DNA from: Bacillus sp. EAC
Lineage (GTDB): Bacteria > Bacillota > Bacilli > Bacillales > Bacillaceae_G
Reading direction: 5' to 3'
Assembly (NCBI RefSeq): GCF_002156875.1
Contig: NZ_NCSY01000015.1
Span: forward strand, 1 to 62,142
Length of the DNA: 62,142 bases
Shown: positions 2,615 through 10,312 of the stretch, one piece after another
Numbering within the stretch: position 1 is the first letter of the stretch
Layout: the number at the start of each line of letters is the position of its first letter
The notes under the pieces: model-generated
Told to the model about the DNA's origin: nothing
Databases searched by the model: none
The model's input: the letters and a program-made list of their open reading frames with translations, nothing else
Position numbers and translations under genes: made by a program

Positions 2615-2726
2615 TCTATTTCTGCTCCCCCATATCCACAAAGCATTATTCGCATTACACTTAATCTAAAAATGCCATATATAAATTGTTTATTAACTTC
2701 CCAGTCGCTTTTTAAACAAAATAAAA

Positions 2727-2822
2727 ATACCCTTTGAATCGTTGTCATGTTTTATATTGGTTAATGAACAATCCATAACCAATACTATCATAAAAAACAT
2801 GCTTAACAAATAGAAAGGGTAT
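2727..2822 (-). repeat. 96-bp nested inverted repeat downstream of salA
   Basis: Three sets of complementary arms nest within one another: ATACCCTTT (2727-2735) with AAAGGGTAT (2814-2822), CATGTTTTAT with ATAAAAAACATG, and ATTGGTTA with TAACCAAT around a short centre. Read on the minus strand the hairpin ends in TTTTTATTTT, so it may terminate salA. Its length and nested shape also resemble a small miniature transposable element. It occupies the interval where gerD normally lies. Confidence 0.7.
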
Positions 2823-2831
2823 TGATTAGAC

Positions 2832-3899
2832 TTATTTATTTAGGGCAATTTTTTCTACTACTTGTTTTGCGATCGTAGTATAAATTTTACCTGTCGGATG
2901 GTCTTTATCATAGATTGATGGTGCAAAGTCCGCTTCATCCCAGTCAGGTTGCTTTAATGGTAATTGACCTAAAAGAGTTGTTTGAAGCTCTTTAGCAAGC
3001 CTTTCTCCTCCGCCTTTTCCAAACACATACTCTTTTTCACCAGTTTTTTCACTTTCGAAATAACTCATGTTTTCTACAACACCAATTATTTCATGGTTTG
3101 TTTTTAATGCCATTACGCCCGCTCTCGCAGCCACAATTGATGCAGTGGGATGAGGTGTAGTAACAATAATTTCTTTACACGAAGGCAGCATGCTATGTAC
3201 ATCTAATGCTACATCTCCAGTTCCAGGTGGTAGATCAAGTAATAAATAGTCTAGATCTCCCCATTCAACTTCAGTAAAAAACTGTTGTAGCATTTTTCCA
3301 AGCATTGGACCTCTCCAAATGATTGGTGAGTTATCTTCTACAAAGAATCCCATTGAAATAACTTTCACGCCAAATCGTTCTACAGGAATAATACGTTCTC
3401 CTCGAATTACAGGTCTTGTTTCGATCCCCATCATATCAGGTACACTAAATCCATAAATATCTGCGTCAATTATCCCAACTTTTTTACCTAATCTAGCTAA
3501 CGAAACAGCAAGGTTTACAGATACAGTTGATTTACCAACTCCACCTTTACCACTTGCAATCGCTAGGAATTGAACTTTTTTATTGTCTAGTAGTGAAAGA
3601 CCAGATACATCTTGCCCTTCTTCGTTCTGATTGAACTGACTTTTCTCTTCTTCAGTAAATTCAGTGAAACGAATACCAACTGTTTCAGCGCCATTTTGTT
3701 TTAATAGTTGAACGATTTGTGTTTGAATTTGCATCTGTTCAGCTGAACCAGTTTTTAACAAAGCAATTTTAACACTTACATGTCTTTTTTCTTCTTTTAT
3801 TGAAATTTCTTTAACTGAGTTAACTTCAGCTAATGATTTATTTAAAAAAGGTTCGTTGATCGTTCCTAAAAGTGATAATACTTGTTCGTTAGTAAGCAT
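2832..3899 (-). CDS. salA: Mrp/NBP35-family P-loop protein SalA
   Basis: A 355-residue protein with an N-terminal DUF59-like (FeS assembly) domain and a C-terminal MinD-type P-loop ATPase with the deviant Walker A motif GKGGVGKS (117-124), DADIYG, and the LPPGTGD switch. In B. subtilis SalA represses scoC and so indirectly raises protease production; Mrp relatives act as iron-sulfur carriers. I chose the ATG at 3899, because the SD-like GAGGTG overlaps a GTG two codons upstream and so favours the ATG. It matches the B. subtilis protein across its length and lies in the conserved cwlD-salA-kbaA order. Confidence 0.94.
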   Translation of the reverse strand: MLTNEQVLSLLGTINEPFLNKSLAEVNSVKEISIKEEKRHVSVKIALLKTGSAEQMQIQTQIVQLLKQNGAETVGIRFTEFTEEEKSQFNQNEEGQDVSGLSLLDNKKVQFLAIASGKGGVGKSTVSVNLAVSLARLGKKVGIIDADIYGFSVPDMMGIETRPVIRGERIIPVERFGVKVISMGFFVEDNSPIIWRGPMLGKMLQQFFTEVEWGDLDYLLLDLPPGTGDVALDVHSMLPSCKEIIVTTPHPTASIVAARAGVMALKTNHEIIGVVENMSYFESEKTGEKEYVFGKGGGERLAKELQTTLLGQLPLKQPDWDEADFAPSIYDKDHPTGKIYTTIAKQVVEKIALNK

Positions 3900-5361: not shown

Positions 5362-6630
5362 TTAATTTTGATTATATGGTTTCATTCTTTGTAGCAGTGT
5401 TCCATCACTTTTTGCATTCTCTCCATATATAAAATGCGGCATATGGCTTTTTAAATACGTACCATATTGACTATTTGTATTTAAAAGTAACTCATCTACA
5501 AAATACGCTCCATTATCAATGGAATCTAAAAGTAAGCTAGCAACACCAGCGTATACTCCACATGCCACCTGGAGATAAGTAGCATTTGTTCCATATTCAG
5601 CATAAGCATCTTGATTGTTCATGACATTATAAACAAATCTTTCTTTATCAGGATAAACTAATAAAACACCAACTAAATCTTCACCGATTAGAGGAGCTGT
5701 TGAGGGATCTAAAAGCTTTTTATCAAAATCCAATATTTCTGCACTGTTGTTCAAATGATTTCGAATCAAATTTGTCGTATGGTCGTTTACTCGATACAGA
5801 AACCCGCTCTCAAGATTAAATAATCTCCCTATTATAAAAACTTCTTCATGGGGCATAAGACAACCGTAAAATATTTTTTTACCTAATGTAACTTTAAATT
5901 CTACTGAATAAACGTCATTATACAAAAAGATAGGGATATTTTCTTTTACAAACATAGGATAGCTTGTAACTGCTTCTTCAAGAAAACAGTCAGGTGACCA
6001 AGTTGTATAGACAGTATTTTTTTGAGCGAGTGTAGGGTTTTCATAAAAAGAATTATCGTGCTCAACGATATAACATGCTAGAGGGTTTTCAAAGGGGAAT
6101 TGATTCATTAAATCGATTGCCATCCATTGTACAATACCTGGATTCATTCCTGATCCAATAATGGCAGAGGTGTTTTTAAATGTATTTTTATTTTCTTCAT
6201 ATACTCTCAACCGTTCTTTCAAAAGAAAGCCATCATTAAGACCCTCAGCTTCGTCCGATAGAGAACTTTCTAAGGCAGTACTGATATACTTTATCCCATA
6301 TTCATTACAGCAGCTTAAGATTTCAACTGAATCTGCCCTCGAGACATCGATTACTAATTCTGTATTCGTTTGTTCAAGATGATTCTTAAATAATTTAAGG
6401 TCATTAAGATTCATCTCGTGAAAAGTTATACGATCAATTAATTGAGGTAAAAAGCTTTCAAAATAAGAAAGTTCCTTTTGTTTTATATCAATTAAATGGA
6501 AACGCGTTTTTATTAATACATGATGTATAGGGTCATCTTGATCTTGGATCACCTTATTAAAAATTGAAAGTACCGCCTTGGCTACTCCTCCAGAGCTACC
6601 TAAAAGCGTAATTACTGCATCCTTATTCAT
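5362..6630 (-). CDS. Saccharopine dehydrogenase / homospermidine synthase-like oxidoreductase
   Basis: A 422-residue protein with an N-terminal Rossmann segment (LLGSSGGVAKAV, residues 9-20). It shares landmarks with bacterial homospermidine synthase: GMNPGIVQWM (161-170), an acidic HDNSF segment, TTWSPDCFLEEA (209-220), GEDLVGVLL, and a C-terminal ATYLQVACGVYAG block followed by a gap of similar spacing before DEL. Homospermidine synthase uses NAD to join putrescine-derived units, and related saccharopine-type enzymes act on amino-acid conjugates; which substrate is used here cannot be read from sequence. The GSSGG loop departs from the classical GxGxxG. It stands alone between terminators in the ybaK-rpsI insert. 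The family is fairly secure, the reaction is not. Confidence 0.7.
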   Translation of the reverse strand: MNKDAVITLLGSSGGVAKAVLSIFNKVIQDQDDPIHHVLIKTRFHLIDIKQKELSYFESFLPQLIDRITFHEMNLNDLKLFKNHLEQTNTELVIDVSRADSVEILSCCNEYGIKYISTALESSLSDEAEGLNDGFLLKERLRVYEENKNTFKNTSAIIGSGMNPGIVQWMAIDLMNQFPFENPLACYIVEHDNSFYENPTLAQKNTVYTTWSPDCFLEEAVTSYPMFVKENIPIFLYNDVYSVEFKVTLGKKIFYGCLMPHEEVFIIGRLFNLESGFLYRVNDHTTNLIRNHLNNSAEILDFDKKLLDPSTAPLIGEDLVGVLLVYPDKERFVYNVMNNQDAYAEYGTNATYLQVACGVYAGVASLLLDSIDNGAYFVDELLLNTNSQYGTYLKSHMPHFIYGENAKSDGTLLQRMKPYNQN

Positions 6631-6752
6631 ATAAACAACTCCATCATTTCTTTTAGTACATTACATTACTTAGTTTATGAATACTTGGACAATTTTGTTT
6701 GGACAAGAATCTTGATTTGAAGGAACAGTTTAATTTTGGACTTTTTCACTAA

Positions 6753-6787
6753 TAAAAAAGACCATTAACAAAGTACTGTTAACAGCC
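6753..6787 (-). terminator. Probable terminator after the portal gene
   Basis: TGTTAACAGTACTTTGTTAA forms a hairpin on the minus strand, followed by GGTCTTTTTTATT. It lies just beyond the portal-gene stop and separates it from the next gene. Confidence 0.6.
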
Positions 6788-6807: not shown

Positions 6808-8166
6808 TCATTTTTCTTTTTCCTCTTTCTCAGGAAGCTTCCAGACTTCCTTACAGAATTCCTTACATTCTTCCCTACATCTCTCTCTTTCCTCCTTACA
6901 TTCTTGCCTAAACCTCTCTCTTTCTGCCTTACACTCTTCCATACGCTTCTCTCTTTCTTCTTCTCGCTTCTTTTCTCGCTCACGTTCTAACTCCCATTCT
7001 CTATCTTTTTGTTTCTGATCAATTGGTTCAGTGTCTATTTTTCGAATAGGCGTATTCCCTTGAATAATAGGTCCAAGTGCCATGATTGTTCGCCATTCAT
7101 TCGGTGTTAATGAACCACGGTCAACCATTGCTGAAAGATTTAATTTCGTGGTTAACGAAGCGAACTCCAGATTGGATGTTTCAAATACAATACGATTCCC
7201 ATTACTTCTATCTCTTCTGTTAAAGAATTTCCTCGTATATTCATTTCCTAACTGGATTGCAAGCGGATCGATTACACCTTCGTAATACGTATTCCACTCC
7301 TCTTCATTATAAGTACTTCTGACGATTTTCTCATTTGTATTAAAAAAACTATATATGCGGTTAATTGCTTCAATCGATCGCTCTTCTTCCGGAACATAAC
7401 TATCCGAATCTACTTGTTCTAAGTCATAAGAAGGCTGTGATAATCCTACTTTAACCCCTTCACCAGTATATTTCATATAATTAGTAACAAAATCATCTGC
7501 ATTTTTTTCCATTTCTTCTTGATCAAGTACTTCATTAAAATTTAATAGCCACTTTATTAAGTTGTTACTATTCGTCTTTTCAATCACACTGTCATCAACT
7601 ACATCAATCATTTCTAGAAGTGGCAATAAAGCTTTGTAAGGACTGTCTCCAAAAATATCATTATCATTAAAATCTTGCCTTAAATGGATAATGTCTTCAT
7701 AAGGTAGAGTAACTACTTTACCGGTTCTAAAAGTAAATTTTAATAATATTTCTCCTTGCTTACTTTCAAGCACCTCTACTTTTGTACACGGAATCGGATA
7801 AATTTCTATTGGATAACCATATTCATTTCGTTTTATATAGGCGAAAGCATTATTATTTAGCTCTAATTGCGTGGTGAGTTTTTCTTGAAGCATTTGACCT
7901 GACATGAATTGATTAGGTTCATTAAATAGCATTCGAATCCATGGATCTGGATTAATTTTGCATTCAGTTAGGTTTTCTCTTATATGCTTTGGTATAAGTT
8001 TTCCAATCGCTCTAGCTTTTGGTCTAATACAAGCTCGAATAACATCACTTCTAAATAATTTTTCTCCAAGAGTAAAAAGACCATCTCCCGCATCGTTAAG
8101 TAACTCAATTTTTTGCGAAGTATCCTGGATATTCTTTTTACCAAATATCCTTTCAATCAAACCCAA
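6808..8166 (-). CDS. Orphan HK97-type phage portal protein with cysteine-rich repeat tail
   Basis: A 452-residue product beginning MGLIERIFGKK, as in many phage portal proteins. It has the portal fold landmarks FNEPNQFMSG, NNNAFAYIKRNEYG, YPIPCTKVEV, DIIHLRQDF, a clip/stem region with INRIYSFF and STYNEEEWNTYYEGVIDPLA, and a terminal SLTPNEWR (352-359). Portals are dodecameric rings through which phage DNA is packaged. Start is TTG at 8166, with GGGAGTGAT upstream. From residue 387 a highly charged Glu/Arg/Lys helix is appended, ending in three 11-residue repeats with cysteines 412, 423, 430, 434 and 438. No terminase, protease, capsid or tail gene is nearby, so it is either a prophage relic kept intact or a co-opted protein. 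Confidence 0.85.
   Translation of the reverse strand: MGLIERIFGKKNIQDTSQKIELLNDAGDGLFTLGEKLFRSDVIRACIRPKARAIGKLIPKHIRENLTECKINPDPWIRMLFNEPNQFMSGQMLQEKLTTQLELNNNAFAYIKRNEYGYPIEIYPIPCTKVEVLESKQGEILLKFTFRTGKVVTLPYEDIIHLRQDFNDNDIFGDSPYKALLPLLEMIDVVDDSVIEKTNSNNLIKWLLNFNEVLDQEEMEKNADDFVTNYMKYTGEGVKVGLSQPSYDLEQVDSDSYVPEEERSIEAINRIYSFFNTNEKIVRSTYNEEEWNTYYEGVIDPLAIQLGNEYTRKFFNRRDRSNGNRIVFETSNLEFASLTTKLNLSAMVDRGSLTPNEWRTIMALGPIIQGNTPIRKIDTEPIDQKQKDREWELEREREKKREEEREKRMEECKAERERFRQECKEERERCREECKEFCKEVWKLPEKEEKEK
6841..6939 (-). repeat. 33-bp tandem repeat encoding 11-residue units in the portal tail
   Basis: Three imperfect 33-nt units encode EECKAERERFR, QECKEERERCR and EECKEFCKEVW (residues 410-442). 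The purine-biased repeat keeps parallel frames open, creating a spurious overlapping frame on the same strand. Confidence 0.85.
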
Positions 8167-8270
8167 CTGAGATCACTCCCAACATAATAAAATAAGTGAG
8201 AAGTTAAGAGGCTTAAATATTAAGTATTTATATCTTGTTAATTTATTAAAAAATTTTAATTTTCATTATA

Positions 8271-8299
8271 AATAATATGAAAATGAATATCATATTATT
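8271..8299. promoter_or_regulatory. 10-bp perfect inverted repeat upstream of the portal gene
   Basis: AATAATATGA and TCATATTATT are separated by 9 nt, about 105 bp upstream of the portal start. It could be a regulator site. The minus strand also offers an ATAAT / CATATTAT pair loosely like a sporulation-sigma promoter. Neither reading can be settled from sequence. Confidence 0.4.
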
Positions 8300-8319
8300 C
8301 GTTCCTCTTCGTGCAATCC

Positions 8320-8356
8320 AAAAAGACTCCCAACCAAAAATGGTTGAGAGTCTTTT
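8320..8356 (-). terminator. aspA terminator
   Basis: AGACTCTCAACCA and TGGTTGGGAGTCT pair on the minus strand with a short loop, followed by TTTTT. A T run on the other side could make it work in both directions. Confidence 0.88.
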
Positions 8357-8452
8357 AAACAAAATTAATTTTTTAGAACGAAAGAGCTCTACTTGAGGCA
8401 CATTTAAGCAAGAACTGGCTTCTACGACAATTTTTTGCTTAACATGAACAAC

Positions 8453-9889
8453 TTATTGTCTTTCTAAAAGAACTGCACCAGCAATTCCAGGGTGAGTCAT
8501 TTCATAAGGATCCAAAATTAAATCAAGCTCTTCTTCTGATAATACGTCATATTTTAAGCATAATTCGCGAATTGGCTGACCTGTTAAAATTGCTTCTCTC
8601 GCAATTCTTGCTGCAACCTCATAGCCTATATGCGGATTAACAGCTGTAATAATACCAGCGCTTTTTTCAACATATTCCTTCATTCTTTCTTCATTTGCTT
8701 CGATACCCTTTAAGCAGTAATCTGTAAATGCACGGAATGCATTATTCATAATGTTGATTGATTGAAGTAAATTAAATACGAGTACAGGCTCCATAACATT
8801 TAGTTCTAGCTGTCCAGCTTCAGATGCTAGGCAAATTGTATGATCGTTTCCAATTACTTGGAATGCCACTTGATTAATAACTTCAGCCATAACAGGATTA
8901 ACCTTACCAGGCATAATAGAAGAACCAGGTTGGCGTGCAGGCAATGTAATCTCACCAAGTCCCGCACGAGGTCCAGAAGCCATTAAACGTAAATCATTGG
9001 CTATCTTAGACATATTCATCATACAAACTTTAAGTGAAGCTGACACTTCCGTGTACGCATCTGTGTTTTGAGTTGCATCAATAAGGTCCTCAGCACCAAC
9101 AAGTGATAAACCACTAATGTCAGCAAGATGCTTGACTACAAGTTCGATGTAGCGAGGATCAGCGTTCAAGCCAGTTCCCACGGCAGTCGCACCCATATTT
9201 ACTTCATATAAGTGCTGGCGAGATTGTTTAATACGCTTAATGTCTCGAGAAAGCACACGAGAGTAAGCTTTAAACTCTTGACCTAAACGAATCGGAACAG
9301 CATCCTGTAAGTGAGTTCGCCCCATTTTGATCACATGATCAAATTCTTTTGCTTTCGTCTCGAAAACACCATACATATTTTCCATTGTATTCAATAATTT
9401 TTCTAACATATTTAACGTTGCAATGTGAATAGCAGTAGGGAATGCATCATTTGTTGACTGCGACATATTCACATGACTGTTAGGACTTATACAGAAATAG
9501 TCCCCTCTTTCTTTACCAATTAACTCAAGCGCACGATTAGCGATAACTTCATTTGCATTCATGTTCATTGATGTCCCTGCTCCACCTTGAATTGGGTCGA
9601 CTATGAACTGGTCATGCCATTTTCCATCAATGATTTCTTGAGCGGCACGCGCAATTGCCATGGCATTTCCTTCATACAAGCGCTTTGTTTCCATATTTGC
9701 AAGTGCTGCCGCTTTCTTTACAATTGCCAAGCTTTTAATTAGTTCCTCGTGTATTTTATATCCTGTAATAGGAAAGTTCTCAACAGCACGTAAAGTTTGT
9801 ATACCGTAATAAGCATCTACGGGTAACTCTTTTTCCCCTAAAAAATCTTTTTCAATTCGTATGTTTACTTTCTTTTCAGTAGCTGTCAT
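8453..9889 (-). CDS. aspA: Aspartate ammonia-lyase (aspartase)
   Basis: A 478-residue member of the fumarase/aspartase superfamily that reversibly converts L-aspartate to fumarate and ammonia. Conserved blocks are present: NMNANEVIANRA (109-120), SQSTNDAFPTA (143-153), GRTHLQDAVP (190-199), and the mobile signature loop GSSIMPGKVNP (322-332). Length and sequence match B. subtilis AnsB (475 residues) better than class II fumarase. There is no ansA asparaginase beside it, unlike B. subtilis. Instead a broken symporter remnant lies just upstream, which suggests that an aspartate uptake-and-breakdown pair once stood here. It has its own terminator. Confidence 0.93.
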   Translation of the reverse strand: MTATEKKVNIRIEKDFLGEKELPVDAYYGIQTLRAVENFPITGYKIHEELIKSLAIVKKAAALANMETKRLYEGNAMAIARAAQEIIDGKWHDQFIVDPIQGGAGTSMNMNANEVIANRALELIGKERGDYFCISPNSHVNMSQSTNDAFPTAIHIATLNMLEKLLNTMENMYGVFETKAKEFDHVIKMGRTHLQDAVPIRLGQEFKAYSRVLSRDIKRIKQSRQHLYEVNMGATAVGTGLNADPRYIELVVKHLADISGLSLVGAEDLIDATQNTDAYTEVSASLKVCMMNMSKIANDLRLMASGPRAGLGEITLPARQPGSSIMPGKVNPVMAEVINQVAFQVIGNDHTICLASEAGQLELNVMEPVLVFNLLQSINIMNNAFRAFTDYCLKGIEANEERMKEYVEKSAGIITAVNPHIGYEVAARIAREAILTGQPIRELCLKYDVLSEEELDLILDPYEMTHPGIAGAVLLERQ

Positions 9890-9908
9890 TTCATTTTTCT
9901 CCTATCTC

Positions 9909-10141
9909 TTACGCAACTTTACATTCTTTTAAAAAATCCATGTACTGTTGCGCTTTGTCTTTATCAAATTCGCTTTCCAATTCCGCTATTGAGATAGCTG
10001 AAGATGAATTCCCTACTACACCGGCCACAGAACAGATCTAAAGTTAATACTTGTGATTAATGTGACTTCCTTAAAAAGGAGCCTCATTAAACCTATTGTT
10101 GCCAGCATAATAATGAACGATGCGCATAATACTCCGCCATA
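9909..10141 (-). pseudogene. Frameshifted C-terminal remnant of a dicarboxylate/amino-acid:cation symporter
   Basis: Two minus-strand frames join into a decayed transporter end. The upstream one (from 10141) reads YGGVLCASFIIMLATIGL and later TLITSINF. The other (to the stop at 9909) reads CSVAGVVGNSSSAISIAELE and then SEFDKDKAQQY. Together these resemble the GGGxxML..VGLPLEG...I..D, NVVGN and xxVAKWEGEFD elements at the end of DAACS (GltP/DctA) symporters. There is no start and no upstream body. It lies immediately upstream of aspA, which fits aspartate uptake. The call rests on remembered family motifs, so confidence is moderate. The remaining bases to rpsI hold only its terminator. Confidence 0.5.
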
Positions 10142-10263
10142 CCTTTTGAAGTCAGTATGAGGAAAATTATAATCTAAGCAGTTTCATATACGACATTTGT
10201 ATTATACATCTGCTCAGGAAATTATGCAGTAAGTTTCATATTAAAAAAACATGTTTCCTAAAC

Positions 10264-10297
10264 AAAAAAACTCCTCCCCACAAAGTGGAAAGGAGTT
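10264..10297 (-). terminator. rpsI terminator
   Basis: Minus-strand stem AACTCCT..CCAC / GTGG..AGGAGTT, followed by TTTTTTTG, directly after rpsI. Confidence 0.85.
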
Positions 10298-10312
10298 TTG
10301 AACGTATATAAA

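Follow-up and report, generated by a model that had tools for sequence, protein, structure and literature searches.

Why does a complete gene for an HK97-type phage portal protein stand alone among housekeeping genes? The question is raised by a 62,142-nucleotide stretch of DNA from Bacillus sp. EAC (contig NZ_NCSY01000015.1; hereafter, the window), in which a sequence-only reading had pointed to such a gene and left two explanations side by side, a recent phage remnant or a co-opted protein, with reuse in spores offered as a conjecture. Comparison of this locus across the genus Gottfriedia decides for the second explanation: the solitary portal is almost certainly a co-opted host gene. Judging from its upstream sequence, it is probably used in the mother cell during sporulation; that it forms a ring in the spore envelope is a tentative proposal.

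6808..8166, minus strand: the solitary HK97-type portal gene, 452 amino acids, TTG start, recognized by Pfam and PHROG matches and by same-site orthologues in 11 other genomes of the genus.

The portal frame runs from a TTG at position 8166 to a stop codon ending at 6808 and comprises 452 codons without internal stops, the plus strand over the same positions being full of stops. The window protein passes the curated cut-off of the Pfam family PF04860, Phage_portal (residues 42-361, 160.3 bits against a cut-off of 39.1, E 8.6e-47), and matches PHROG 12, portal, over residues 1-442 (E 2.9e-60), which confirms the earlier description of an intact 452-residue portal without a frameshift. The orthologue at locus L033 scored 96.7, below the cut-off of 112.05 of the NCBIfam equivalog TIGR01537, a figure for which no prophage relative was scored as a control. 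A Shine-Dalgarno-like GGGAG run can be read 5' of the TTG, as expected from the previously noted Shine-Dalgarno-supported start, and TTG is the start codon in 10 of the 12 orthologues. At loci L034 and L041, ATT (G010) and CTG (G008), respectively, take the place of TTG.

Full-length, open matches with 61-72% identity to the portal were found in 11 of the 12 other Gottfriedia genomes searched, the named ones including Gottfriedia solisilvae, G. acidiceleris and G. luciferensis. Thus, 12 of the 13 genomes of the genus, the window's included, carry an intact orthologue at the same site, and none of the 12 contains an internal stop. In the family search, 13 of the 19 genomes yielded matches, every one of them in Gottfriedia; the match in G004 is weak (E 5.2e-7) and falls inside a portal with adjoining capsid and terminase genes. 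In all 11 relatives, the solitary portal lies between a malic enzyme/two-component block (with an additional SelO gene in G001) and a saccharopine-dehydrogenase-like gene; G004 is rearranged on the side upstream of DUF2521. In all six genomes examined from three sister genera, DUF2521 comes next after rpsI, only frames shorter than 65 amino acids lying in between, so the portal-bearing block is an insertion of Gottfriedia. In the window, one flank of the portal consists of aspA (8453-9889) followed by rpsI and rplM, and the other of the saccharopine-dehydrogenase-like gene, DUF2521, cwlD, salA, kbaA and pdaB; the ribosomal-gene neighbourhood reported earlier is, accordingly, real but incidental, given that the portal belongs to a block inserted between rpsI and DUF2521-cwlD.

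The ratio of nonsynonymous to synonymous divergence (dN/dS) of the portal is 0.057-0.119 in all 45 pairs of the 10-genome main clade; the 21 pairs involving G000 or G001 were excluded because synonymous sites are near saturation in these (proportion of synonymous differences, pS, 0.66-0.77). By region, dN/dS is 0.038 for residues 41-180, 0.141 for 181-270, 0.077 for 271-385 and 0.086 for the C-terminal tail, which is therefore under constraint. The mean values of neighbouring genes are 0.032 for aspA, 0.086 for the saccharopine-dehydrogenase-like gene, 0.032 for cwlD, 0.061 for salA (compared in 11 of the 12 genomes) and 0.068 for DUF2521, and the synonymous divergence of the portal correlates with that of its neighbours (r 0.78-0.90). 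The portal gene is, then, passed on vertically and under constraint, with a rate of evolution above those of aspA and cwlD. Same-site orthologues, stop codons in close relatives and dN/dS were the checks put forward with the sequence-only reading, and together they settle the matter in favour of co-option over a remnant: synteny holds in 12 of 13 genomes, internal stops are absent from all 12 orthologues, and selection is purifying in all 45 pairs.

Profiles of the terminase small and large subunits, protease and capsid, built from related prophages, had no match at an E value of 1 among the 321 window frames of at least 50 amino acids, and the only match of the portal profile to the same frames was the gene at 6808-8166. 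The absence of terminase, prohead protease and capsid genes noted earlier thus holds for the window, where the order of a working phage, with the portal between terminase and protease or capsid, is not found. Genome-wide, the PF05065 capsid occurs in 3 of the 13 Gottfriedia genomes and the PF03354 terminase in the same 3; with respect to these two families, the only ones searched, neither is present in 10 of the 12 genomes with the solitary portal, one of them the window genome. Both families occur in G002 and G007, which also contain additional portals (G002 combines the solitary portal with three others), and phage-type portals within the genus are those of G002, G004 and G007. In carriers lacking both families, there appears to be no HK97-type head for the solitary portal to serve.

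The same separation is apparent in the survey of a named collection, which comprised all 73 loci found by a search for relatives holding one of two peptide patterns. At the 9 Gottfriedia-type loci, no terminase, protease or capsid gene lies within up to 6 kb on each side (less than 3 kb on one side of L065), and at the remaining 64, the portal is without exception preceded by a terminase gene and followed by a capsid gene. The co-located cluster of head and tail genes that would mark a gene transfer agent is not seen: none of the 9 named loci has a head or packaging gene, the count being confined to these and leaving tail genes aside. Phylogenetic and structural comparisons used an alignment, A3, of 60 rows: 10 of the 12 genus proteins (G008 and G010 were left out), database proteins P0002-P0006, classed as solitary from sequence alone, and 45 others. 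In the tree of these 60 proteins, the 15 counted as solitary form one clade with 100/100 support; the stem leading to it measures 0.71 changes per column, a pattern that a single capture and a subsequent burst of change would be expected to leave. A search of 50,697 phage records gave matches that are all less than 60% identical, the first-ranked at 52%. The database similarity search scored the 8000 candidates sharing most words, and among the best 120 of its 3349 matches, identity to portals that are not of the Gottfriedia type does not exceed 57%; the closest relatives outside the genus among the matches listed are Bacillota prophage and phage portals, 49-57% identical over approximately residues 1-385.

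What has changed in the protein is concentrated in two regions:

7390..7596, minus strand: the clip part of the portal, residues 191-259, delimited on the predicted model, where residues conserved in related portals are most frequently lost.

6841..7017, minus strand: a lineage-specific tail, residues 384-442, forming one long, charged, cysteine-bearing helix according to the alignment, cysteine counts and model; absent from five non-Gottfriedia portals.

The predicted model contains the portal order of wing, stem, clip and tunnel loop, with the clip modelled at low confidence, and its structural matches (PDB 8cez, 8fql and 9i8c; the absence of a fold from the match list excludes nothing) cover approximately residues 13-376; sequence searches of PDB reached four portals at most. 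In this model, the solitary portal appears to keep the portal fold. Conservation was compared with 38 portals, the 7 most distant of the 45 others being dropped; 25 of the 38 are from loci identified as prophages, and the other 13 are database proteins with unread surroundings. At sites conserved in related portals, the stem helix and clip retain 9 of 22 residues and the rest of the body 81 of 98. The clip is the most changed part of the protein, and its specific conservation has been lost. The charged C-terminal tail, 45-71 residues long, is present in all 12 orthologues and missing from all 5 non-Gottfriedia portals aligned; it contains four cysteines in all 10 main-clade genomes, five in the window and one in G001.

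The link to sporulation comes from the sequence upstream of the gene:

8272..8300, minus strand: a sigma-E-type promoter box, GAATA-N16-CATATTAT, 134 nucleotides before the start codon; the strict pattern is present in 10 of the 12 orthologues, and a relaxed, post hoc form in 11.

Gottfriedia sporulates, and spoIVA is present in 13 of 13 genomes. The pattern ATA-N16-18-CATAnnnT, which we take to be of the sigma-E type, occurs in its strict form upstream of the portal in 10 of the 12 genomes, 120-156 nucleotides before the start, against 0.46 matches expected from first-order Markov simulations (maximum 4 in 300); the relaxed form (GAATA, spacer of 15-17), which fits 11 of 12, was defined after looking. 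As a calibration, the strict pattern lies at -96 of spoIVA in all 13 genomes of the genus. Among the 12 other gene families at the locus, 121 upstream stretches contain none; it is found before pdaB in 7 of 11 cases and before cwlD in 1 of 12, both of them spore genes. The box is common to three deep lineages (G000, G001 and the main clade), much of the remaining upstream sequence having diverged. Sigma-G, sigma-F, sigma-K, sigma-B and simple sigma-A patterns were found upstream of the portal in none of the 12 genomes. The spacings of sigma-E and sigma-K promoters are published (PMC517825), in passages that print no consensus letters. The conjecture of reuse in spores thus gains partial support, namely a shared promoter pattern of the sigma-E type, which is a consensus match only.

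Several observations weigh against a spore role as proposed here. Because the 12 upstream regions share ancestry, they provide approximately three independent lineages of promoter support rather than twelve; the sigma-E box is missing from G002, and only its relaxed form fits G011. At 120-158 nucleotides, the box is rather far from the start codon, and in the window it overlaps a sigma-70-like site with 10 of 12 letters matching, sigma-70-like sites in the portal upstream region being no commoner than in shuffled sequences. Counted on both strands, the 62-kb window contains 15 instances of the strict pattern, and the 121 control stretches include many that are coding or have a lower AT content. 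A SpoIIID-like site is found upstream of the portal in none of the 12 genomes, under a consensus whose letters were not found in PMC517825. On the protein side, the clip and the tail end of the model have low predicted local distance difference test (pLDDT) values, A3 is shallow, and the comparison made as a control on clip divergence, with 15 of the 38 rows, lacks the long stem and is weak. The single cysteine of the G001 tail implies that cross-linking is not general.

The scenario that, in our view, best accounts for these data begins with a single capture, by which the ancestor of most species of Gottfriedia acquired a portal gene from an HK97-type Bacillota prophage. The gene would have lost its phage neighbours and become a host gene, whose transcription would start at the sigma-E-type promoter, in the mother cell, when the bacterium sporulates. 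The product would assemble into a ring, as portals do, no longer shaped for docking a packaging motor and bearing a crown of charged, mostly cysteine-bearing helices; the tail helices may form a bundle with cysteines able to cross-link. Disulfide cross-linking is common in the spore envelope, and the ring could be a structural scaffold or anchor of the forming envelope instead of a DNA packaging part. Taken as a whole, this scenario of a single capture, a host gene and a mother-cell-made envelope ring has about an even chance of being right; the more specific picture of a portal ring domesticated alone, freed from packaging and placed with its cysteine-bearing helical crown in the spore envelope is speculative and could well be wrong.

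The gene that follows the portal also carries upstream patterns that can be compared with those of sporulation genes:

6754..6787, minus strand: a terminator-like hairpin and T-run separating the portal from the next gene, recognized in the sequence and by folding; absent from the terminator scan list.

6701..6707, minus strand: CTTGTCC, the complement of SpoIIID-like GGACAAG, beside the sigma-K-type box; 12 of 12 genomes.

6671..6698, minus strand: the sigma-K-type promoter box of the saccharopine-dehydrogenase-like gene; 12 of 12 genomes.

5362..6630, minus strand: the saccharopine-dehydrogenase-like gene, 422 amino acids, adjoining the solitary portal in every one of the 12 carriers.

The portal stop is followed by a hairpin and T6 (the 71 nucleotides fold at -21 kcal/mol); the terminator assigned to the portal in the earlier reading is therefore visible and folds, even though the terminator scan did not include a hairpin 3' of the gene among its entries. 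In all three genomes folded, hairpins with T-runs separate the two genes. The motif AC-N16-17-CATAnnnTA (sigma-K type) precedes the saccharopine-dehydrogenase-like gene in 12 of 12 genomes, or in 11 of 12 if the G008 start is set by the longest frame. GGACAAG is what we take to be the SpoIIID-like consensus; a broader SpoIIID-like pattern has 16 matches in the 62-kb window. Given the separate promoter patterns and the hairpins, the portal and the next gene each seem to have their own mother-cell-type promoter. The name of the second gene comes from weak Pfam hits, all of them on the copy at L033, the window copy having none. It is patchy in the order, occurring in 22 of 299 genomes, eight of them Gottfriedia, and portal-free in other genera; extra copies exist in G001, G009 and G011. 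Of the 17 other copies, 16 were compared (a 126-amino-acid fragment in G070 was left out). In no case does the stretch of approximately 7 kb contain a portal; the strict sigma-K pattern is found with none of the 16, a relaxed form with 4 and CTTGTCC with 3. A functional pairing of the two genes was rejected because other copies stand without a portal; their adjacency is positional in Gottfriedia and not general.

Three further peculiarities of gene content emerged. The genes for gltP, malic enzyme and a sensor kinase/YcbB-type regulator pair, present around aspA in the 11 other portal-bearing genomes, are absent from window positions 8167-8452 and 9890-10312, likely a local loss in the window species. 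In G001, a SelO-family gene (L032, 9242-10714) lies directly upstream of the solitary portal, as at no other locus compared. Finally, gerD is missing from the gap between kbaA and salA (window 2641-2832), where the sister genera have it; the GerD family was found in none of the 13 Gottfriedia genomes and was detected in all six sister-genus genomes and the Bacillus subtilis control. Germination may be different in a genus with spoIVA but without GerD.

Among the alternatives, a co-opted host gene that acts in vegetative cells and not in the spore, for instance, as a nucleic-acid-gripping or membrane-associated ring, fares best and deserves serious consideration as a minority view. The sigma-70-like site overlapping the box, the small number of independent lineages behind the promoter evidence and the metabolic or regulatory nature of the upstream genes in the 11 other genomes (malic enzyme, two-component pair) are all in keeping with it, whereas the sigma-E pattern shared by three deep lineages and calibrated by spoIVA, and the sigma-K pattern of the downstream gene in 12 of 12 genomes, favour the sporulation role. 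An anti-phage decoy, which would mix with the portals of infecting or resident HK97-type phages and poison their heads, is unlikely. Such a protein would retain the portal fold and wing core, as observed, purifying selection is compatible with a defence gene, and phage-type portals do exist in the genus; however, the limited identity to other portals (at most 57% among the best 120 of 3349) makes mixed rings doubtful, the dN/dS is low, the upstream pattern resembles a sporulation promoter, and G002 carries the solitary portal alongside three others. Furthermore, defence genes are usually patchy in distribution, unlike this fixed site in 12 of 13 genomes. No PADLOC model matched at an E value of 0.1, so a known defence gene was rejected.

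That the solitary portal serves a scattered gene transfer agent or satellite, with the other parts elsewhere in the genome, is very improbable, considering that 10 of 12 carriers, the window genome among them, lack the two families searched, that G002 and G007, which have both, also have additional portals, and that constraint on the clip is relaxed; for PF05065 and PF03354, a split phage or gene transfer agent part was rejected. Recent phage debris that happens to be intact would fit an isolated phage gene beside housekeeping genes and the lost clip residues, but was rejected by dN/dS (0.057-0.119 in the 45 measurable pairs) and synteny and is hardly credible for a gene that has been vertically inherited at one site and that all 12 carriers keep intact even where synonymous divergence is close to saturation.

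The solitary portal of Gottfriedia is a clean case: one clade, nearly genus-wide, under purifying selection, at a site that lacks a portal gene in sister genera. It amounts to a natural experiment on portal use without packaging, in which the wing core and tunnel loop were kept and the clip was released. If the sporulation link is true, a viral ring joins the parts list of a bacterial developmental programme, through the single-protein exaptation of a viral DNA gate for bacterial spore building.

With the portals of HK97-family phages (PF04860; PDB 8cez, 8fql), the solitary portal shares the fold over approximately residues 13-376 and 29 alignment columns invariant across the 60 Gottfriedia-type and other portals; unlike them, it has no adjoining terminase, protease or capsid gene, has lost the clip conservation, and has gained an extra charged, cysteine-bearing helix and an upstream pattern of the host sporulation type. 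Portals of Bacillota phages and prophages, such as Caldibacillus phage CBP1 (49% identical) and Clostridioides phage phiCD08011 (52%), differ in context, all 64 prophage portals examined in genome contigs adjoining terminase and capsid genes. Gene transfer agents keep a head and tail gene set around their portals (PDB 6toa, 6tba, 6te8), whereas the solitary portal stands alone, most of its carriers being without PF05065 and PF03354. We are aware of no reuse of a portal ring that has been described, and a search of titles and abstracts in the open-access literature, a scope outside which most subscription papers lie, returned no report of a lone, co-opted, spore-proteome or Gottfriedia portal. 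To our knowledge, then, reuse of a lone portal is undescribed, but reuse of a phage structural fold is of a known kind: cells have reused phage capsid shells, tails and whole particles, and the closest parallels are encapsulins, which reuse the capsid shell fold, and other single phage proteins kept by hosts, in which, as in the solitary portal, one phage structural fold has been put to use by cells.
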